From: Rhodospirillaceae bacterium
GTDB taxonomy: Bacteria > Pseudomonadota > Alphaproteobacteria > UBA6615
Assembly (NCBI GenBank): GCA_018667335.1
Contig: JABIVD010000057.1
Span: 1 to 34,419 of the forward strand
Length of the DNA: 34,419 nucleotides
Direction: 5' to 3'
Shown piece after piece: positions 346-33,797 of this stretch (the stretch's first letter is position 1; every line of letters begins with the position of its first letter). The position numbers and the translations under genes are program-made. A model generated the notes under the pieces. The model was given only the letters and a program-made list of their open reading frames with translations, did not search any database and had not been told where the DNA came from.

Positions 346-1227
346 GTGACGACCCAGCCGGGAAACAGGAAACCGACGAAGCTGACGAACCTGACGTTTG
401 GGGCGAACCTCACGTTTGGGGTGACGCTCGGCGTTGGGGTGTTGCTGGTCGGCTTGGGCGTGAGCGCGGGTCCCGCCTGGTCGCAGACGCCGGTAGCGAC
501 GCCGGCAGCGACGCCGGCCAGTACGCCGGCAACACGCGACGCCGGAACGCTGTCCCATGACTGCACGGACGTGACCATCGACTATGCCGATGAACCCGGG
601 CTGACCCGCGAGGAGCGCATCGCACGCATGGACCGTGCCTTCCAGCGCTCGCTCGGCCGTTTCGAGGAATGCCAGTCCGAGCGCGCCGGGACGGGTGGTG
701 GTTCGGGTGGTGGTTCGGGGGGTGGAACAGGTGGTGACGCCGGCACGGGTGGCGGTGATGGTACTGGCGAATTGTCGGGCACCGAGGCTGCGGGAACGGA
801 TGCCGGGGGTTCGGAATCCTCCGGCGCCGAAACCTCCACGGCGGCCAGCGATATCTCCGGCCCGGATGCAGCCGAGAGCGCGCCCGCGCAGGAGGGCAGC
901 TCGACGGCTGCCAGCGATGTGACGGGCGACGCGCCCACCGTGAGCGCATCGACGACTGCCCCCAATCAGAACGGCAAGTGGACGCGGCCGGACGATATCG
1001 AGAGCCCCGAAGACAAGGCCGACAGCCCGGCGCGTGATGAACCGGTGCGCGAGGCGGCGCGAACGCAGGGCGGCGGGAAAGTCCCCGAAGATATTCCGCC
1101 AGCAGACAATGACAGCGCGCTGGAGGCGCAGATTCGCCAGGCCGCAATCGAGGAAACCGACCCGGAACTGAAAAAGCGGCTCTGGGACGAATATCGCAGG
1201 TATAAGGGCCTACCGGTGTCCCAGTAG
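346..1227 (+). CDS. exported low-complexity protein, first gene of the envelope operon
   Basis: I do not recognise the family. The GTG at 346 is preferred because AAGGGG lies 9 bases upstream; an in-frame ATG at 304 lacks a ribosome-binding site. The protein (293 residues) starts with a basic stretch and a hydrophobic segment, and a signal peptidase site is likely near AWS-Q around residue 46. An Ala/Thr/Pro repeat follows (TPVATPAATPASTPAT), then a short charged helical part with two Cys, one in SHDCTD and one in FEECQS. A long Gly/Ser/Thr/Ala-rich disordered stretch leads to a charged C-terminus (EETDPELKKRLWDEYRRYKG). It probably acts in the periplasm as a spacer or scaffold. It is 21 bases from the lipoprotein gene and co-directional with it. 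Confidence 0.75.
   Translation: MTTQPGNRKPTKLTNLTFGANLTFGVTLGVGVLLVGLGVSAGPAWSQTPVATPAATPASTPATRDAGTLSHDCTDVTIDYADEPGLTREERIARMDRAFQRSLGRFEECQSERAGTGGGSGGGSGGGTGGDAGTGGGDGTGELSGTEAAGTDAGGSESSGAETSTAASDISGPDAAESAPAQEGSSTAASDVTGDAPTVSASTTAPNQNGKWTRPDDIESPEDKADSPARDEPVREAARTQGGGKVPEDIPPADNDSALEAQIRQAAIEETDPELKKRLWDEYRRYKGLPVSQ
387..422 (+). repeat. two tandem 18-base units in the signal region
   Basis: Positions 387-404 and 405-422 differ at 2 of 18 bases and encode the repeated NLTFGA/NLTFGV at the start of the hydrophobic export segment. This looks like a small in-frame slippage duplication. Confidence 0.7.
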
Positions 1228-1248
1228 GGGCTCCGGACGGAGACTGAC

Positions 1249-2508
1249 ATGCAAAAGCTTTTTCGCAAGATGGGTGTTTATGCCGTGTGCGCGTGCTTCA
1301 CGCTCACGGCCTGCGTGACCAATGGGAATGTCGGCTCTGGCGGGGCCGGCGCCAGCGGCCCGAATGTGGGCCCGCAATTGTCGTCGTTGTTCGACCCCGA
1401 GGGGCCGGCGAAGGTCGATCCCGCGAAACCGCGCCTGGACGTGGTCGTGCCGGTGTTCGATCCCGGTCTATCGGACGCAGGGCGCAATTATGAAGAAGAG
1501 GGCGTGTGGCCGGAACTGCGCCGGGCGGAAGCGAATCGGTTCGCGGTGAAGCTGAAAGAGGCGCTCGAGAAAACAGGCGCGTTTGGTGCCGTGCGCGTGA
1601 CGCCGGACCGCAACGCCACGGGCGATCTCTATGTCCTGGGGAGCATCGTTGAATCCAATGGCGCGGATGTCGAAATCCAGGTCGAAGTGGTCGATGTCTC
1701 GGGCCGGTCCTGGTTCGTCCGCTCCTTCGACCACGAGGTGCCCTCGGGCTTCCACAAGAACATCCGCAATGAGGGGCTGGACCCCTATGACCCGGTGTTC
1801 GAGGAGGCGGCAAACCGGGTGGCCCATGAGCTGGATGATTATTCAATCGCCGAGCTCGATAATTTGGGCCGGTTGACCGAGCTCCGGTTCGGATCGAATT
1901 TCGCCGAGGACGCCTTTGCCGAGCACCTTGTAACCAAACGGGGCACCGTCGCCCTGCGCAGCTTCCCGAGCGATGCGGACCCGATGCTGGAGCGAACCCG
2001 GGCCGTGCGGGTGCGCGATCAGCTTTTCGTCGACGGATTGCAGGACCATTACCGCGCCTTCAGCGCCGAGATGCAGGAGAGCTACCTGATCTGGCAGGAG
2101 CAGAGCCTGTTCGAACAGGAAGCGCGGCGCGAGGCGAATGAGAAGGCGATCGGCGAGGCAGCACTGGGTGTGCTGGCGATCGGCCTGGGCGTGCTGGCTG
2201 TGATCGCCGGGTCGAATTCGGATTCGACGGCCGGACGGACCGCGGGTGTGACCGGCGGTGTCGTGGCGGGGACGCTCGGCGCTACCCTGCTGTCGAGCAG
2301 TTTCCAGACCAGCAAGGAGGCCGAGGTGCATCGCGACGCGCTGGCCGAGTTGGGCGAGTCCATCGACATCGACCTGGCCCCGCGGGTGGTGGCTTTCAAA
2401 GAGAAGACCATCGAGTTGACGGGTACGGCGAAGGAGCAATTCGCCCAGTGGCGGGCGTTCCTGCAGCGGGTCTTCGAGGAAGAGCGCACCCCCAACGTTC
2501 AGCTCTAG
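1249..2508 (+). CDS. lipoprotein of the envelope operon
   Basis: The 419-residue protein has a lipoprotein signal with lipobox LTAC, the lipidated Cys being residue 22. A GGAGA ribosome-binding site precedes ATG 1249. After a Gly-rich linker comes an alpha/beta region (about residues 55-170) with strands such as GDLYVLGSIVES and VEIQVEVVDVSGRSW. Its pattern resembles CsgG/LpoB or TolB N-terminal type domains, but I cannot assign it firmly. A long helical part follows (190-300). Then come two hydrophobic glycine-rich segments at about 303-325 and 333-355, like a glycine-zipper hairpin, and a helical tail. The acyl anchor plus the hydrophobic hairpin suggest an outer-membrane partner of the inner-membrane proteins encoded downstream. 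There are 15 bases to the next gene. Confidence 0.85.
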   Translation: MQKLFRKMGVYAVCACFTLTACVTNGNVGSGGAGASGPNVGPQLSSLFDPEGPAKVDPAKPRLDVVVPVFDPGLSDAGRNYEEEGVWPELRRAEANRFAVKLKEALEKTGAFGAVRVTPDRNATGDLYVLGSIVESNGADVEIQVEVVDVSGRSWFVRSFDHEVPSGFHKNIRNEGLDPYDPVFEEAANRVAHELDDYSIAELDNLGRLTELRFGSNFAEDAFAEHLVTKRGTVALRSFPSDADPMLERTRAVRVRDQLFVDGLQDHYRAFSAEMQESYLIWQEQSLFEQEARREANEKAIGEAALGVLAIGLGVLAVIAGSNSDSTAGRTAGVTGGVVAGTLGATLLSSSFQTSKEAEVHRDALAELGESIDIDLAPRVVAFKEKTIELTGTAKEQFAQWRAFLQRVFEEERTPNVQL

Positions 2509-2523
2509 GGCGTACCGCCGCTT

Positions 2524-4005
2524 ATGCTCCAGGAGAAACTCGAACAGGAAAGCCTGGCCGCCCAGCGCCGCCGGATACAGATCGTGGTTGGCATCGCCGC
2601 GAGCGTCGCGGTGATCGGACTGACCTATGCGGGGATCGTCCTGCTCCGCCCCTCGGATGTGGCGGACGCACCACTGGCGGCCCAGACGACACCCGAGGCC
2701 GTGCCGAAGACGCCGCAGGCCATGCCCGAGATTGTCCGCCCCGCGCCGGTTGTCGCGCCCGATGAGGCGGCAAACGAGGCGGCGCGTGATCAGTTCAAAA
2801 TCGACCTCGCCGCGTTCCAGACCGCCCTGGAGCCGGCGGTGACCCATGATGATTTCGCGCGTTGGGACGCCGCGGCGCAGCGCCGGATTCTGGACGGCAA
2901 GGCGGTGGCGATCTCCCTGTTCTCGGAAGGGTCCTACATGGCAGCCGTCACCGAGCTGGCGGCGGCGCGCACGACGGCCGAGCAGGCGCTGGCGGCACGC
3001 GAACAAGCCTTCAATGATGCGTTCGCGGCGGCGGAGGCCGCCTTTGGCGACGACAATTACGACGCGGCGGCGCTGGCGATCGATCGCGCCCTGACGATCC
3101 AGCCGATGTCTGACCCAGCGGCGGCTCTGAAGCAGCGGATCGACGCGTTGCCGGCGTTGCTGGCGAAGATCGAAGACGCGGCGGTGGCCCGGGTCGAGAA
3201 CAATCTGGATGCCGAGCGGGGCCATCTCGAAGCCGCGCTGGCGATCGATCCGGGGCGCAGCGAGCTGGCGCCCCGGCTGGCAGAAGTCCGGCGCCTTTTG
3301 CGCGAGGCACGGTTTGCCGGGCATATCGTGGCTGGGTTGAAGCATGTTGAGGCCCGGGCGCTCACATCGGCGCAGGGCGCTCTCGATGCGGCCCGCGGGA
3401 TCTATCCCGATCGCGCCGAGGTCGACGTGCTGGACGAGAAGATCGCCGGTCTGGAGATCGAACTGCTGATCGAGCGCCTGACCCGGACCGCAAGGGCCGC
3501 CGCGCTGGCCGATGACTGGGCCACGGCCGAGCAGACCTATATCCAGCTGCGTCGGCTGGCGCCGGCCGACCGCGACATCACCGGCGCGTTGGCGCGGGCG
3601 CAGACGATCAACCAGCTGCACGCGCGCGCGGCACGGCATCTCGCAGCACCCGGGCGGCTGGCCTCCGTGGCCGTGGCGGCGGAAGCCGCCTCGCTCGTGG
3701 ATGCCGTGGCGCCGATGCGCGACGAGAGCCCCCGCCTTGCAGCGCAGGCCGACGCGCTCGCCGGGCTTATCGCCGCCTATGGGGTGAAGGTGCCGGTGCG
3801 CATCGTCTCGGACGGCAAGACCAACATCACCGTGCGCGGGGTCGGGATTGTGGGAAAGATCACCGAGCGGACCATCGAGCTGCGGCCCGGCCAGTACACG
3901 ATCGAGGGTATCCGCGAGGGGTTCCAGGCCGTGCTGATGCGCGTCGACATCCCGCCGGGGCAGGCCGATCTGGTCCTGGAGATTGTGCCCGATGAACGCA
4001 TCTGA
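2524..4005 (+). CDS. single-pass membrane protein, helical repeats, PEGA-like C-terminus
   Basis: The protein has 493 residues. A short basic N-terminus (AAQRRRIQ) is followed by one membrane helix at about 20-42, so most of the protein should face the periplasm. Residues 80-400 are Ala/Leu/Glu-rich helices in TPR-like pairs. Residues 420-490 form a beta-rich module with the RPGQYTIEGIREGF pattern expected of PEGA-type surface domains. There is no catalytic motif, so a scaffolding role in the envelope is inferred. The ribosome-binding site in front of ATG 2524 is weak, which suggests translational coupling to the lipoprotein gene 15 bases upstream. The last 14 bases overlap the next gene. Confidence 0.85.
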   Translation: MLQEKLEQESLAAQRRRIQIVVGIAASVAVIGLTYAGIVLLRPSDVADAPLAAQTTPEAVPKTPQAMPEIVRPAPVVAPDEAANEAARDQFKIDLAAFQTALEPAVTHDDFARWDAAAQRRILDGKAVAISLFSEGSYMAAVTELAAARTTAEQALAAREQAFNDAFAAAEAAFGDDNYDAAALAIDRALTIQPMSDPAAALKQRIDALPALLAKIEDAAVARVENNLDAERGHLEAALAIDPGRSELAPRLAEVRRLLREARFAGHIVAGLKHVEARALTSAQGALDAARGIYPDRAEVDVLDEKIAGLEIELLIERLTRTARAAALADDWATAEQTYIQLRRLAPADRDITGALARAQTINQLHARAARHLAAPGRLASVAVAAEAASLVDAVAPMRDESPRLAAQADALAGLIAAYGVKVPVRIVSDGKTNITVRGVGIVGKITERTIELRPGQYTIEGIREGFQAVLMRVDIPPGQADLVLEIVPDERI

Positions 4006-6031
4006 ACCTGAATCGGAACCGGGGTTTGAACGGGGGCTGCGCGCCGCGCGCGCGCGCCAGGCCCGGCTCTACGTGCTCGGGCTGGTGGCGTTGGTGCTCG
4101 TGGTCGTTGCGGTTGCGGGGATTCTGATTTCCACCAATGCGACCCGGGTGACGATCCTGCCAGCCGAAGCCGAACCGGAAGGTTCAATCGAATTGACCGA
4201 GGGGTTCGGCCTCGCGGTGGGCGATGCGGTCTACACGGTCTCGCGGGCACCTGTGCTGCTGGTACGCGCACCGGGCTTCCGCGACGCCAGGCGCGCGATC
4301 CAGCCCGGAGAGAAGGGCCGCCGGATTGCGGTGACGCTTGTGCCGCTGCCCGGCCGGCTGGTGGTGACGACGGCGCCGGCCCTGGTAGACAGCCGCTGGT
4401 CGTTTGACGGGCGGCTGGTGAAAGTCGGCGAGCTGCTCGACACGGAGGGCGAGGACGGGGCCCATGAGGTGGCGGTGGATCATCCGTTCTTTGTGCCGGC
4501 GACGCGGGATGTCGAACTGAAGCGGGGCGAAGTCACCGAGACCGAGATCGCGCTGGAGCCCGTCGCGGGGCGCCTGACGATCATTTCCGATCCGGCGGGG
4601 GCCAAGGTGGAGATTGGCGGCACCGACGCTGGTGCCACGCCACTCGACCGGACGCTCGCGGGCGGGGAATACCGGATCACGGTCACCGCACCCGACCGGC
4701 AGCCCCTCGAGGACGTCATCCGGATCACCAACGCCCGGCCCGACGTCGCGCGGAACTACAAGCTGCTGCCGTTCGCAGCGACCCTGAATTTCGACGTGTC
4801 ACCGGCCGGCGGCGAGTTGCTGGTCGACGGCCGGCGGGTCGACCCGGAGAGGTCGGTGGAGATCACCGCGGCGCAGGACCACACGATCGTCTATCTGCGC
4901 GACGGGTATCGCGGCGAGACCCGGACGGTGCGGCTGGCGCCCAACGAGACGCGGACGCTCACCCTGGCGCTCCAGCCCGACCTGGGGCTGGTCGAGATCG
5001 AGACCGACCCGCCGGCGGAGATTTATGTCGACGGCAAGCTGCGCGGCGAGGGCAACGCGTCCCTGCGTCTGCTGGCCGTGCCCACCCGTATCGAGCTGCG
5101 CAAACCCGGTTATCGCAGCATCGCCCGGAACATTCTGCCGTCGGCGACGCGCCCGCTGGTGATCCGCGAGACGCTGATCCCCGAGGCGGTCGCACGGCTG
5201 GCCGAGGCGCCGCGGACCTACACCAACAGCGTCGGGATCGAGCTTGTGCTGTTCGAGCCCAACGACGAATTCGTCATGGGGGCGCCGCGCCACGAGATTG
5301 GCCAGCGGGCCAACGAGTTCGAGCGCCGCGTGCGCCTGACCCGGCCCTTCTATGCGGCCAAGCATGAGGTGACGAATGCCCAGATGGCGGCGTTCCGCGG
5401 CAGCCGGGGGCTGGCGCCGAATGCGCCCGTTTCCGATGTGCGCTGGCAGGACGCCGCCGGGTTCGCCAACTGGCTGAGCGCCGGGGAGGGGCTGGCACCC
5501 TTCTATCGCGTGGCGGGCGGCCGGGTGCGAGGAATCGACCCGAAGGCCGACGGATACCGGCTGCTGAGCGAGGCGGAGTGGGAGTGGCTCGCACGCAAGG
5601 CCGGGCGCCCGGACCGGAGCATTTTCGGCTGGGGCGACGGGGCGACCATCCCGCGGGGCGCGGGCAACATTGCAGACGAATCTGCCAACGGCGTGGCCCG
5701 AAACTTCGTACCCAACTACAATGACGGCCATGCGCGGATCGCGCCCGTCGGCAGCTTCGCGGCCGAGAAATCCGGGCTCTTCGACCTGACGGGCAATGTC
5801 AGCGAGTGGGTCCATGACTGGTATTCGCTCGAGCCGCCCGCCAAGGGGTCTGTCGCGGTCGACCCGCTCGGGCCGTCGTTCGGCGATGCCCATGTGATCA
5901 AGGGGTCGAGCTGGCGGTCGGGGACGCGCACCACGTTGCGCGCGGCCTATCGGGACGGCCTGTCCAGCGGGCGCGACGACGTCGGATTCAGAGTAGGGAG
6001 GTATCTCCATGGTGAAGACACGCCGAAGTAA
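3992..6031 (+). CDS. PEGA-repeat protein with SUMF1/FGE-like domain
   Basis: The ATG at 3992 has GGAG 10 bases upstream; an upstream TTG at 3983 is less likely. The 679-residue product has one membrane helix at about 25-47. It then has four beta repeats of PEGA type at about 121-168, 192-236, 262-308 and 331-377, for example PAEIYVDGKL followed by IELRKPGYRS. A formylglycine-generating-enzyme/SUMF1 fold spans about 408-672, with the family hallmarks FYAAKHEVTNAQ, YRLLSEAEWEWLAR, LTGNVSEWVHDWY, IKGSSW and DDVGFR. The whole protein has no cysteine, so it lacks the copper-binding Cys pair of true FGE. It is therefore probably a binding or structural domain in the periplasm rather than an FGE enzyme. 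Confidence 0.9.
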   Translation: MNASEPESEPGFERGLRAARARQARLYVLGLVALVLVVVAVAGILISTNATRVTILPAEAEPEGSIELTEGFGLAVGDAVYTVSRAPVLLVRAPGFRDARRAIQPGEKGRRIAVTLVPLPGRLVVTTAPALVDSRWSFDGRLVKVGELLDTEGEDGAHEVAVDHPFFVPATRDVELKRGEVTETEIALEPVAGRLTIISDPAGAKVEIGGTDAGATPLDRTLAGGEYRITVTAPDRQPLEDVIRITNARPDVARNYKLLPFAATLNFDVSPAGGELLVDGRRVDPERSVEITAAQDHTIVYLRDGYRGETRTVRLAPNETRTLTLALQPDLGLVEIETDPPAEIYVDGKLRGEGNASLRLLAVPTRIELRKPGYRSIARNILPSATRPLVIRETLIPEAVARLAEAPRTYTNSVGIELVLFEPNDEFVMGAPRHEIGQRANEFERRVRLTRPFYAAKHEVTNAQMAAFRGSRGLAPNAPVSDVRWQDAAGFANWLSAGEGLAPFYRVAGGRVRGIDPKADGYRLLSEAEWEWLARKAGRPDRSIFGWGDGATIPRGAGNIADESANGVARNFVPNYNDGHARIAPVGSFAAEKSGLFDLTGNVSEWVHDWYSLEPPAKGSVAVDPLGPSFGDAHVIKGSSWRSGTRTTLRAAYRDGLSSGRDDVGFRVGRYLHGEDTPK

Positions 6032-6200
6032 CCCATTCAACGCCGGGCAGCGCGGGGGCCGGGCGCGCGGGGGGCGGCGCCGCCTGCTGGCGCTGGTCAT
6101 TGCGCTGTCGGCCGGGGTCGGGCTGCTCGGCTTCGCCTACGCGCAATCCGCACCCTCGTTCAGCCTGAACTCGCCGGTCTCCTTCCCGGTCGACATCTAG
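6009..6200 (+). CDS. small exported peptide of the envelope operon
   Basis: This 63-residue ORF has a strong ribosome-binding site (GGGAGG at 5996-6001, 7 bases before the ATG). It overlaps the end of the previous gene by 23 bases and sits 22 bases before the channel gene, so it is very likely real. A basic N-terminus (about nine Arg/Lys in the first 25 residues) and a hydrophobic core (LLALVIALSAGVGLLG) end in AYA-Q, a classic signal peptidase I site. Cleavage would leave only 18 residues, ending SFSLNSPVSFPVDI. I do not recognise the peptide. It could be a ligand or a small subunit of the complex, or an uncleaved membrane-anchored miniprotein. Confidence 0.75.
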   Translation: MVKTRRSNPFNAGQRGGRARGGRRRLLALVIALSAGVGLLGFAYAQSAPSFSLNSPVSFPVDI

Positions 6201-6222
6201 ACGTATCCACAGGGACGAACCC

Positions 6223-7008
6223 ATGCCCGAAGTCGCCAAGAATATCCTCGCCCTGGTCCTCTCGATCATCGTCGTCCACCTGTTCTACGCCGGGTATGTC
6301 TGGCCGGAATCGGCACAGCTGCTCGACGCCGCGCGCGCCGCCGGCAAAAGCGCGCCGCGCAACATCGTGGTGATCCTCAAGGACTGGGAGCAGGAGATCG
6401 CCATCATCCTGATGTTCTGGGGTCTCTACCTGATCTTCGAAAAGAGCATCGCGATCCTGCGCGAACGCTACCTGTTCAATGTCGATCTGCTGGAGGGAAG
6501 TGACGGCGGCGACATGACCGCGACCCTGGCGACCCTGGAGGGGCTGCCGGAGAAGATCCGCCGCGCGCCGCTGGTCCGGACCCTGATGGCGAGCCTGCGG
6601 CGGTTCCTGATCACCGGCGACGTGCACAACACGTCGGAGACGATCGAGGCGAGCGTCGACGCCATGGCGCAGAAGCAGGAGGCCGAAAACTCCCTGATCC
6701 GCTACCTGATCTGGGCCATTCCCGCGATCGGCTTCATCGGCACGGTGCGCGGCATCGGCGAGGCCCTGTCCCAGGCCGACCAGGCCCTGGCCGGCGATAT
6801 CGCCGGGATGACCGAGAGCCTCGGCGTCGCATTCAACTCCACCTTCGTGGCGCTGCTGATCTCGATTGTCCTCATGTTCCTGCTGCACCAGCTCCAGCGC
6901 CTGCAGGACGGGATGCTCGTGGACACCCAGGAATATTGCGAATCCTTCCTGCTGAACCGGATCAGCGCTGTGGGCATGGCGGACGCGAACAAGGCAGGCG
7001 AAAGCTGA
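6223..7008 (+). CDS. MotA/TolQ/ExbB-type proton channel subunit
   Basis: The 261-residue protein has four predicted membrane helices at about 8-26, 58-76, 160-178 and 202-222, with a cytoplasmic stretch between helices 2 and 3. Helices 3 and 4 carry the family signatures IPAIGFIGTVRGIGEAL and LGVAFNSTFVALLISI, including the polar Thr/Ser that line the proton path in TolQ, ExbB and MotA. In those families, five such subunits surround a dimer of single-helix partners and convert proton flow into movement. The two single-helix vWA proteins encoded next are the obvious partners. No tonB, tolA or flagellar genes are nearby. AGGGA precedes ATG 6223. Confidence 0.92.
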   Translation: MPEVAKNILALVLSIIVVHLFYAGYVWPESAQLLDAARAAGKSAPRNIVVILKDWEQEIAIILMFWGLYLIFEKSIAILRERYLFNVDLLEGSDGGDMTATLATLEGLPEKIRRAPLVRTLMASLRRFLITGDVHNTSETIEASVDAMAQKQEAENSLIRYLIWAIPAIGFIGTVRGIGEALSQADQALAGDIAGMTESLGVAFNSTFVALLISIVLMFLLHQLQRLQDGMLVDTQEYCESFLLNRISAVGMADANKAGES

Positions 7009-8060
7009 GACGGCGCCGCTCACCCCCGGGGTTCAACCTCGCCTTCCTGGACATCATGTCCTGCGGGCTGGGCGCGATCATCCTTGTGTTGATGCTGGTG
7101 AAGCTCGACAGCGAGAATGTCTCGGCGGAGAGCAACCGGTTGCGCGAGGACCTCGTGCGCCTGGAGGCGACGGAGACCGACCTGAGCGCCCGGATCACCG
7201 CGCTGCTGCGCGACAAGGCGGTCAGCGCCGAGGAGGTCGAGGCGCGCGCGGCCGAACTGGCCCGGCTGCAGGCCGCACTCGCACGCGAGCGGCAGCAGAT
7301 CGCGGCGAGCCAGAGTGCGGCCCGCGCGCTGGAGGAGACGATCACATCCATCGAAATCCCGGAAAAACCCGACGTCGTCGAGACCCAGCCGACCGGCAGC
7401 GAGACCTACATCGTCGGGTTGCGGGTCGAGGGCGCACGGATCGGGGTGCTGGTCGATTCCAGCGCGTCGATGACCGATGAGGTGTTGATCGACATCATCC
7501 GCCGCAAGAACATGGCGGTCGCCGACAAGCAGGCCGGGCCGAAATGGCAGCGCACGCGCCGGGTCGTGGCCTGGTTCCTGGCGCGGGTGCCGGAACGCTC
7601 GGACGTGCGCGTGGTCGCGTTTAACGACCAGGCGCGGCCGCTGGGCGGCGTGGTCAGCGGCACGGACGCCGCGGGGCTGGGCCGGGTTCTCGGCGATCTC
7701 GACAGCGTGGTTCCGACCGGGCCGACCAACCTGGCGGCGGGCCTGTCCGCGCTGGCGGCATTCCGGCCGACAGATCTCTATGTGATCACCGACGGCCTGC
7801 CGACGGCGGGCAATGCCGGGTACCGCAGCCTCAACCCCTTCTCGGACTGCAGCGCGCTGTGGGGTGGTGCCACGTCGATCTCGGGGGCATGCCGGGTCCG
7901 ATTGCTGCAGCACACGATCAACAATGCGGGGATGGGGAACGCTCGGGTCAATGTCGTGCTGTTGCCGATCGAGGGCGATCCCCAGGCGCCCCATGAATTC
8001 TGGAAGTGGACGGCGGCGACGGATGGCATCCTGATCAGCCCGGCGTCCAGTTGGCCATGA
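7005..8060 (+). CDS. single-pass vWA protein 1, likely CTG start
   Basis: No ATG, GTG or TTG start lies at a sensible position: the first ATG in frame is already inside the membrane helix, and TTG 6936 lies deep in the channel gene. A CTG at 7005 overlaps the channel stop as CTGA and would give MRRRRSPPGFNLAFLDIM, which mirrors MRRKRAEFEIFNLSFLDV in the next gene. Numbered from CTG, the protein has 351 residues. It has a MotB/ExbD-like helix at about 10-34, a coiled coil at 35-115, and a von Willebrand A domain from about 145 to the end. The metal site is complete: DxSxS (D151, S153, S155), T241 in GPTNL, and D263 in VITDG. It probably links channel motion to periplasmic binding. Confidence 0.87.
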   Translation: MRRRRSPPGFNLAFLDIMSCGLGAIILVLMLVKLDSENVSAESNRLREDLVRLEATETDLSARITALLRDKAVSAEEVEARAAELARLQAALARERQQIAASQSAARALEETITSIEIPEKPDVVETQPTGSETYIVGLRVEGARIGVLVDSSASMTDEVLIDIIRRKNMAVADKQAGPKWQRTRRVVAWFLARVPERSDVRVVAFNDQARPLGGVVSGTDAAGLGRVLGDLDSVVPTGPTNLAAGLSALAAFRPTDLYVITDGLPTAGNAGYRSLNPFSDCSALWGGATSISGACRVRLLQHTINNAGMGNARVNVVLLPIEGDPQAPHEFWKWTAATDGILISPASSWP

Positions 8061-8070
8061 GGATCGGGCC

Positions 8071-9024
8071 ATGAGGCGGAAGCGCGCAGAGTTCGAAATC
8101 TTCAACCTGTCGTTCCTCGACGTGATCTCGTGCGGGTTCGGCGCGGTCGTGCTGCTGGTGCTGATCTCGCCCTTCGGGGTCTCGGATGAGGCCGGGGGCA
8201 CCGACGAGACGAGCACCCTGTTGCAGCGCCTGATCGGCACCGAGGCGCGCATCGAGCAACTGGAGGCGGCACTCGGGCGCGAGGCCGAGACCCTGGCCCA
8301 GACCCGCGCCCGGCTGGAGGCCGAGGGCACGGCGGTCAGCACGGCCGAACGCGATCTCAGATCGGCGAGTGACACGGCGGCGGAACTGGCCCGGAACGTC
8401 GAGGGGCTGCAGACGGTCGAGAGCGCATTGCGCAACCAGGCCCGCGCCGGGGTCTCTGCGCCCGAAAATGCACCGCGCGACGCCGAGGTCGGCGGCATTC
8501 CGGTCGACAGCGAGTTCGTGGTCTTCGTCGTCGATACGTCGGGGAGCATGCAGTCGATCTGGGAGCGGGTCACCCGCGAGGTCGAAAACATCATTCGCAT
8601 CCACCCGCAGATCAAGGGCTTCCAGGTTCTGAACGACAACGGAACCCATCTGATTGGTGGCTACCGCGGGCGCTGGATCCCCGACACGAAGGGCGCGCGT
8701 GACCGGGCGATCCGCCTGTTCCGCAGCTGGAAGAGCGCGTCGAATTCGAGCCCGGTCGAGGGGCTGGAGGTGGCGCTCAAGCGCTATGTGAAGCCCAACG
8801 AAAAGGTCTCGATCTATATCTTCGGGGACGACTACACCGGGTCTTCCTATGACCCGGTGATCGCGACCCTGTCGCGGCTCAACAAGAACCGGATCACCGG
8901 CGAGCCCAAGGCGCGGGTCCACGCGATCGGGTTCATATCGCTGCAGACCGAGGGGCGGTTCGAGACCCTGATGCGCGAGGTGACGCGGCAGAACAACGGC
9001 ACGTTTGTCGCCCTGCCGCGGTGA
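8071..9024 (+). CDS. single-pass vWA protein 2
   Basis: This 317-residue paralogue of the preceding gene has the same plan. A basic start is followed by a membrane helix (11-33) with the FLDVISCGFGAVVLL signature, a coiled coil (45-120), and a vWA domain from about 147. Its MIDAS begins DTSGS (D155, S157, S159). The Thr position appears to be Ser in NSSPVEGL, and the Asp is in FGDDYTG, so metal binding may be weaker than in paralogue 1. AGGA lies 8 bases before ATG 8071, and the start is 10 bases after the previous stop. Two different vWA partners for one channel subunit suggest a heterodimeric shaft. It is the last gene of the operon and converges on the cupredoxin gene. Confidence 0.9.
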   Translation: MRRKRAEFEIFNLSFLDVISCGFGAVVLLVLISPFGVSDEAGGTDETSTLLQRLIGTEARIEQLEAALGREAETLAQTRARLEAEGTAVSTAERDLRSASDTAAELARNVEGLQTVESALRNQARAGVSAPENAPRDAEVGGIPVDSEFVVFVVDTSGSMQSIWERVTREVENIIRIHPQIKGFQVLNDNGTHLIGGYRGRWIPDTKGARDRAIRLFRSWKSASNSSPVEGLEVALKRYVKPNEKVSIYIFGDDYTGSSYDPVIATLSRLNKNRITGEPKARVHAIGFISLQTEGRFETLMREVTRQNNGTFVALPR

Positions 9025-33720: not shown

Positions 33721-33797
33721 CGGGAAGTAGCTCAGCCTGGTAGAGCACTACGTTCGGGACGTAGGGGCCGGAGGTTCGAATCCTCTCTTCCCGACCA
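33721..33797 (+). tRNA. tRNA-Pro (CGG)
   Basis: 77 bases with encoded CCA. The acceptor CGGGAAG pairs perfectly with CTTCCCG. The D-arm is AGCTC..GAGC, the anticodon stem CTACG/CGTAG encloses TTCGGGA (anticodon CGG), and the T-arm carries GGTTCGAAT. It reads proline codon CCG, common in this GC-rich genome. The sequence beyond it changes to an AT-rich composition. Confidence 0.97.

Follow-up and report, generated by a model that had tools for sequence, protein, structure and literature searches.

A conserved gene cassette joining a TolQ-like channel and paired vWA proteins to a fixed set of envelope partners in a Rhodospirillaceae bacterium

Contig JABIVD010000057.1 of the Rhodospirillaceae bacterium assembly GCA_018667335.1 carries a block of genes for a putative envelope machine, here named A to H. 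The window, that is the whole stretch of DNA analyzed, comprises 34,419 bases (contig C20 in a 62-contig assembly). The first-pass annotation, made from the sequence alone, had described eight co-directional neighboring genes at this place, and all eight open reading frames (ORFs) are indeed present on the + strand at 346-9024 with small gaps or overlaps, neighbors being spaced by 10-22 bases or overlapping by 4-23 (Table 1).

Table 1. Genes of the cassette and the suggested CTG start of G.
Feature	Position	Strand	Basis
A: exported low-complexity protein	346..1227	+	family profile; one hydrophobic segment near N-terminus
B: 419-amino acid lipoprotein	1249..2508	+	lipobox Cys, AlphaFold2 (AF2) model, structure matches
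C: single-pass TPR protein	2524..4005	+	family profile; hydrophobic segment 17-43
D: single-pass PEGA and C-terminal FGE/SUMF1-fold protein	3992..6031	+	Pfam
E: 63-amino acid mini-peptide, tail SLNSPVSFPVDI	6009..6200	+	tail pattern, position
F: MotA/TolQ/ExbB-type channel subunit	6223..7008	+	Pfam MotA_ExbB; conserved threonines
G: putative first axle protein (FLDIMSCG helix, coiled coil, vWA)	7005..8060	+	Pfam VWA_2; motif
H: putative second axle protein (FLDVISCG helix, coiled coil, vWA)	8071..9024	+	AF2 model; D17
G CTG start	window 7005-7020; L030-L036, L042, L043		upstream codon inspection

At the core of the cassette, a TolQ/MotA-type channel is followed by two vWA proteins, each with a single helix, that take the position of ExbD/MotB; this early reading is borne out by Pfam, motifs and recurrence. 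F matches Pfam MotA_ExbB (PF01618) at 6e-14 (52.3 bits versus a cut-off of 22.9), and its threonines T174 and T207 are found in 79/79 aligned sequences; in a profile alignment with a weak E-value (0.57), they align with the TolQ threonines of GTVWGI and ATAIGL. Second contig copies (L044, L045 and L053) were excluded from the residue counts for F, G and H, from the tail, helix-motif and D cysteine counts and from the identity correlation. G matches Pfam VWA_2 at 5e-5, below the cut-off, and has the helix motif with its Asp in 77/77 loci. The Pfam VWA match of H is weak (0.01); its helix residue D17 is present in 90/90 aligned sequences and the full helix motif fits 87/92; the five that deviate comprise one fragment, two distant relatives and two variants. 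Residues of the metal ion-dependent adhesion site (MIDAS) type are conserved in both proteins, namely D174, S176, S178 and D286 in 80/80 and T264 in 78/80 for G (numbering from TTG 6936), and D155, S159 and D253 in 90/90 and S157 in 89/90 for H. We take these to form a metal site, as in the vWA family.

The AF2 model of H (predicted local distance difference test (pLDDT) 82, predicted template modeling score 0.55) has a helix at 13-32, a coil at 45-125 and a vWA domain at 149-315, and matches vWA domains by Foldseek (2.4e-8) and VIA (Z 18.4, root mean square deviation 2.2 over 157 residues). The G and H profiles gave mostly coiled-coil matches against PDB sequences. Pfam finds no ExbD/TolR domain at a credible E-value in A to H of the window, a 0.19 hit in H falling in the vWA part. 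By analogy with ExbD/TolR, the helix Asp of G and H may bind protons. Because F keeps the TolQ-aligned threonines, and G and H keep the ExbD-like Asp, the three proteins are likely to form a proton-driven 5:2 motor whose axle combines the two vWA proteins.

Translation starts are ambiguous for some of the genes. An in-frame ATG also lies upstream of A at 304, D could begin at ATG 3992 instead of TTG 3983, and the window offers G either a CTG at 7005, which overlaps the F stop, or TTG 6936. No ATG, GTG or TTG lies within 120 bases upstream of the G helix motif in 13/77 loci, and in nine of those 13 a CTG at -4 overlaps the F stop codon (CTGA); the window has the same CTG. Since nine relatives share this CTG with no ATG, GTG or TTG nearby, we suggest that the CTG start of G is conserved and coupled to F.

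Genes A to H recur together. A search of 95 related genomes with H as the query found matches in 14, the source genome counted. Sequence stretches from relatives show the same gene order, within the reach of their contigs, for the source genus, for one more genus of its family (L033-L036, L042, L043) and for a different family (L038). Genome G017 holds two divergent cassettes (L036 and L037); the second retains A, B, C, D, F, G and H, and its H is 39% identical to the window H. The pair hints at paralogous machines in one cell, or at a mixed assembly.

A wider scan of genomes with the H alignment confirmed 298 relatives, from which the best 80 were kept, so that co-occurrence among these loci is biased to close relatives. 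The best 80 include Alphaproteobacteria (Denitrobaculum, Magnetovibrio, Sneathiella and Aestuariispira), Gammaproteobacteria (Methylophaga, Glaciecola, Agaribacter, Exilibacterium and Halieaceae), Desulfobacteraceae/Desulfobulbaceae, and single metagenome assemblies labeled Acidobacteria and Verrucomicrobia; the closest H relatives among them are alphaproteobacterial (66% for an uncultured one). With eight family profiles, the order A-B-C-D-(E)-F-G-H was recovered in most sufficiently long loci. Forty-eight loci have at least 9 kb upstream of H, among them L044 and L053, whose twin contigs were not counted; C, D and F are present in all 48, B and G in 47 each, and A in 45. Locus L096 was counted as lacking G through overlapping ORF calls only, a profile search does find it, and L070, which is without A and B, ends soon after H.

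A sample of 397 genomes from the phylum, filtered at 90% completeness, gives a fairer estimate than the best 80. H was matched in 17 of the 397, strongly in 12 including the source genome. Two of the 11 other strongly matching genomes (G215 and G209) have short contigs, and the remaining 9/9, from five genera with five genomes in genus g173, have all of A to D and F to H. The five weak matches probably reflect coiled coils and were disregarded; the one among them that was inspected, L164, has an H-profile hit of only 29 bits, none of A to G, and neighbors that by eye are of the chemotaxis type.

Homologs did not turn out to be scattered independently, and across the loci examined the core is accompanied by the lipoprotein and single-pass partners that the first-pass annotation had listed with it. 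Chance juxtaposition is excluded because order and content recur across classes; A to H are a real unit. The order is not entirely rigid. In L163 it is A-B-C-D-G-H-F, F having shifted behind H, and in L064 and L120 A-B-C is inverted and placed behind D-F-G-H, which suggests that the set contains two sub-modules. Flanking genes recur among close relatives only.

Three further observations concern the distribution of the cassette and its surroundings. In G001, a genome of the same genus, the search recovered nothing beyond a disrupted piece of H that contains two internal stop codons (L041 2429-2848, G001:C53). It is flanked by the neighbor clusters n7/n9 and n16/n17, which also border the cassette in relatives, and the set therefore seems to have been lost there. 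The source assembly holds a second copy of the cassette (G000:C21:1-14000, L030), with an H 93% identical to that of the window and, by eye, similar downstream genes. Given this second copy, and a window H that is 100% identical to the H of same-genus G005:C72, the assembly may mix two related populations. The sole tRNA gene found in the window is a tRNA-Pro (cgg) at 33721-33797.

A, B, C and E have no credible Pfam assignment. A has a conserved C-terminus (...LWDEYRRYKG, by eye). B carries the lipobox Cys C22 in 60/60 aligned sequences, and its AF2 model (pLDDT 81) contains a long helical hairpin with a Gly-rich tip below 50. The earlier description of B as a lipoprotein with a glycine-zipper hairpin thus holds for the lipobox and for the hairpin as modeled, the Gly-rich tip being of low confidence. 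Residues ~50-200 of the model resemble PelC (VIA Z 11.5, 2.6 Å over 113 residues), FlgT (11.1), curli CsgG complexes (up to 10.5) and the TolB N-terminal domain (8.9), where rows within 1 of each other count as tied; LptE and PqiC are also in the VIA list. Foldseek lists FlgT (7e-4), LptE (0.003) and TolB (0.015), and the B profile retrieved nothing convincing from PDB sequences (best 0.19). The model suggests an outer-membrane role for B.

C and D had both been taken for PEGA-type single-pass proteins. This was confirmed for D, which matches Pfam PEGA at 1e-23, but not for C, which is mainly TPR (its family profile reaches 5e-39 against an engineered TPR protein and 4e-10 against the top natural TPR chain) and in which Pfam finds no PEGA domain; the PEGA-like character of its C-terminus was judged by eye. 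D also matches Pfam FGE-sulfatase (4e-32), the family of formylglycine-generating enzyme (FGE), and against solved structures its profile finds human SUMF1 (6e-31) and PorK chains (3e-24). Its best NCBIfam match is GldK/PorK (5e-15); membership was rejected, as the score of 55.8 bits compares with a cut-off of 350. In 73/73 D sequences, Cys is absent from window-aligned columns 636-661, counting the columns that are occupied in the window protein. This stretch, visible in the D alignments, is where we take the FGE catalytic cysteine pair to lie, near the C-terminus. D was accordingly rejected as a formylglycine-generating enzyme, the catalytic cysteine pair being missing, and because no Cys is found across the catalytic stretch its FGE-fold domain is probably an inactive binding domain.

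The mini-peptide E has a signal-like N-terminus (AYA-QS, by eye) and ends in SLNSPVSFPVDI. It had been called a tiny exported peptide; the 63-amino acid peptide recurs with a constant tail, while its export signal was judged by eye only. Among 77 loci having D and F, the tail FP[VI]DI is present in 63, with close variants in 5 more: a pattern search found 59 (58 FP[VI]DI and one YPVDI) and inspection by eye 9 further (5 FP[VI]DI, 3 LPSDI and 1 FPTDI), 68/77 altogether. It was not seen in the other nine (L037, L074, L079, L080, L082, L083, L088, L110 and L119), nor in L161 and L163 among the 10 phylum-sample loci that reach the E place. When all loci are taken together, 70 out of 9,639 ORFs terminate in [FL]P[VITS]DI, and 69 of these are at the E place: 66 were counted there, and three more by their position directly before F (L098, L116 and L121). 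The last one is read from the other strand near a terminus of L121. The E tail is readable on both strands at that contig end (L121 1-414), possibly an inverted assembly end. Many gammaproteobacterial E peptides have a long polar linker and an unchanged tail. The constancy of the tail and its free C-terminal end suggest that E is a peptide ligand.

Part of this machine has been described before. The first-pass annotation knew of no named system with this content, a claim that must be withdrawn for the core: a channel with paired helix-vWA proteins was published in 2025 as a predicted 5:2 motor family, still without a name (PMC12204202; Mol Biol Evol 2025, msaf138). According to the portions of that paper dealing with them, its vWA proteins mostly occur in heterologous pairs adjoining tolQ homologs, without tolR/exbD, and have an ExbD-like helix with an Asp that AlphaFold 3 models place inside the Thr ring of a pentamer, a ring said to be essential in such motors. 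The family is mainly found in Proteobacteria and Verrucomicrobia, and no function is given in these portions; a TPR gene is mentioned beside another vWA family, the SHLS type. The cassette likewise has a tolQ homolog next to two different adjacent helix-vWA genes and, in the window, no credible ExbD domain by Pfam, whereas A to E are unnamed in the vWA-pair section of the paper. From these shared features, we infer that the F-G-H core belongs to this family. The text of PMC12204202, outside its figures (figure 4c included), does not contain 'formylglycine', 'SUMF1', 'sulfatase' or 'PEGA', and a term search finds no 'vWA' in a broad stator phylogeny (PMC12505986) or in a review of 5:2 motors (PMC9389320). 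Literature searches covering the text of open-licence papers, apart from supplements and figures, did not find the whole partner set together. So far as searched, the fixed partner set, the fold of B, the inactive FGE domain, the constant-tail peptide, the sub-modules and the sister sets described below are new.

Comparison with known machines shows where the cassette departs from them. With TolQRA-TolB-Pal and ExbBD-TonB it shares the channel family with pore threonines, an axle helix with Asp and a lipoprotein domain of the TolB N-terminal type, but its axle ends in vWA heads, and Pfam gives no credible match in A to H to a TolR-type axle, TolB propeller, TonB/TolA or Pal OmpA domain. The AglRQS-Glt motor of Myxococcus also combines one channel protein with two different axle proteins, although AglQ/S bear TolR-like peptidoglycan-binding domains where the cassette axles bear vWA domains (PMC9389320, in part). 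In the type 9 secretion system GldKLMN, a motor is paired with an FGE-fold partner, GldK, as here, but D falls far below the GldK cut-off, and no NCBIfam match to GldL, GldM or GldN was obtained among A to H at E up to 1; the same review, in the part consulted, describes GldL as lacking conclusive sequence homology to other motors (PMC9389320). TagR-PpkA of the Pseudomonas H1 type 6 system likewise has a periplasmic vWA domain with a periplasmic partner, but PpkA is a kinase and no channel subunit is described in the portions available (PMC3224232, PMC10482370), whereas the short cassette has no kinase. PelC, CsgG and FlgT share the fold of the B N-terminal domain (VIA Z ~10-11.5), to which B adds its long helical hairpin.

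A long version of the cassette and more distant sets place the core in other company. In the long gammaproteobacterial version, a gene n0 precedes G in 27 loci; by profile, its C-terminus is FHA-like (0.001-0.003), and there is also a weak Hsp70-like hit (0.026). Behind H lie n1 in 21 loci, n2 in 21 and n3 in 20, n3 being an M48 peptidase (2e-34 for one member); n1 has an invariant lipobox-like Cys (14/14 aligned) and n2 is lipoprotein-like by eye. The more distant channel/vWA relatives L039 and L040 have different neighbors. In L040 4247-9783, a channel and a pair of vWA proteins are accompanied by a Ser/Thr kinase (9e-30, fused to a beta-helix) and two FHA proteins; in L039 995-5688, the neighbors of a vWA protein are PP2C-type phosphatases and an FHA-trypsin protein. 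Some distant relatives thus sit with phosphorylation genes, as PpkA does.

Proton-driven 5:2 motors provide the power for flagella, for the uptake of nutrients, for constriction of the outer membrane and for gliding. We consider it probable, with a real measure of doubt, that A to H encode a proton-driven, envelope-spanning force transducer like Tol-Pal, Ton and Agl-Glt. Five F subunits would form the pore, and one G and one H helix would make a mixed axle inside it (5:1:1), each Asp facing the pore threonines. Proton flow would turn or tilt this axle, and the coiled coils would pass the motion to two different periplasmic vWA heads. The machine may move or load adhesive vWA domains, as proposed at first pass. 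C, with its TPR array, and D, with its PEGA repeats and an inactive binding domain of FGE fold, would both have their anchors in the inner membrane and build a periplasmic scaffold that the vWA heads grip and release via their metal sites. At the outer membrane, the lipoprotein B, possibly assembled into a ring, would take up the force. E would be exported as a short peptide, and its fixed C-terminal tail would dock on one of these domains, acting as ligand or latch.

Co-variation of the proteins speaks for this proposal: over 58 loci, the pairwise identities for B, C, D, F, G and H show Spearman correlations of 0.78-0.90, and among eight loci compared, L069 (Desulfobacteraceae), L057 (Methylophaga) and L051 (Thiotrichaceae) are nearer to the window than gammaproteobacterial L101 in all six proteins. 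Several points weigh against it. The match of F to solved motor structures is weak, with MotA at 0.16 and TolQ at 0.57, and a capsid protein ranks above both at 0.11. An outer-membrane ring of B is a guess, because the fold of its domain is common among lipoproteins. With a species-tree control absent, the correlation of identities speaks of co-inheritance, not of binding. The set also seems dispensable, as a genome of the same genus shows only a broken H fragment, and the evidence for the force transducer consists throughout of genes and single-chain models. A bolder form of the proposal, which we regard as quite unlikely, is a rotary motor with an obligate hetero-axle of one G and one H, whose two metal-dependent vWA heads act as alternating hands. 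Rotation driven by protons would make them bind and release the secreted peptide E (tail ...FPVDI), which would sit on D, C or B as a latch, strand or ligand that can be removed. If true, the cassette would encode a trans-envelope ratchet along with a peptide clip of its own; to our knowledge, such a principle is not met in Tol, Ton, Mot, Agl or Gld machines.

We also considered whether the cassette could be an envelope sensor, in which the vWA heads and the FGE-fold protein serve as receptor, the ion channel sets or reads the membrane state and a signal reaches cytoplasmic FHA/kinase proteins. The portions seen of PMC3224232 report that PpkA has an extracellular vWA sensor domain and that TagR is likely a co-receptor on its C-terminal domain; TagR acts on the vWA-bearing periplasmic part of a kinase (Pseudomonas; PMC3224232, PMC10482370 and PMC6082577, in part). 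The FHA-like n0 of the long version, the kinase and FHA proteins of L040 and the phosphatases of L039 point the same way. However, Pfam detects no kinase, FHA or phosphatase domain in A to H of the window, and the intact channel threonines and axle Asp are not obviously needed by a pure sensor. The comparison, moreover, presumes that TagR is FGE-like. On balance, a sensor is unlikely.

An export machine, whose motor would power the secretion of a polymer, or its assembly, across the outer membrane in the manner of GldLM in the type 9 system, with D replacing GldK and B forming a PelC/CsgG-like ring, is very unlikely. The GldK/PorK and PorK matches of D, the close resemblance of the B domain to PelC and CsgG, and the M48 peptidase, n1 and n2 added behind H in the long version are what such a machine would have in its favor, but the nearest solved relatives of D are FGE enzymes, its score is far under the GldK cut-off, and on inspection of the recurrent neighbor clusters the fixed set showed neither a cargo gene nor one for an outer-membrane channel. 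Zorya-like anti-phage defense, with the MotA-like channel sensing attack, was prompted by a weak PADLOC match of F to ZorA2 (0.0015, 15.6 bits). No other Zorya model of PADLOC matches A to H at E up to 1, and the other PADLOC matches, of G and H to JetC and LmuB (0.03-0.19), are weak and fall in coiled-coil stretches. With 13.7 bits versus a cut-off of 500 for NCBIfam ZorA and no other Zor protein, this explanation was rejected as highly improbable.

As a putative force transducer, the cassette extends what could be said of its motor class. The fuller parts list, with A, B, C, D and the constant-tail peptide, turns an orphan motor of 2025 into a testable machine, and suggests an outer-membrane receiver, a scaffold and a peptide that can be synthesized as bait. 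The set also ties this class of motor to FGE-fold and vWA partners otherwise met in type 9 and type 6 secretion and, in the more distant sets, to kinase/FHA genes.

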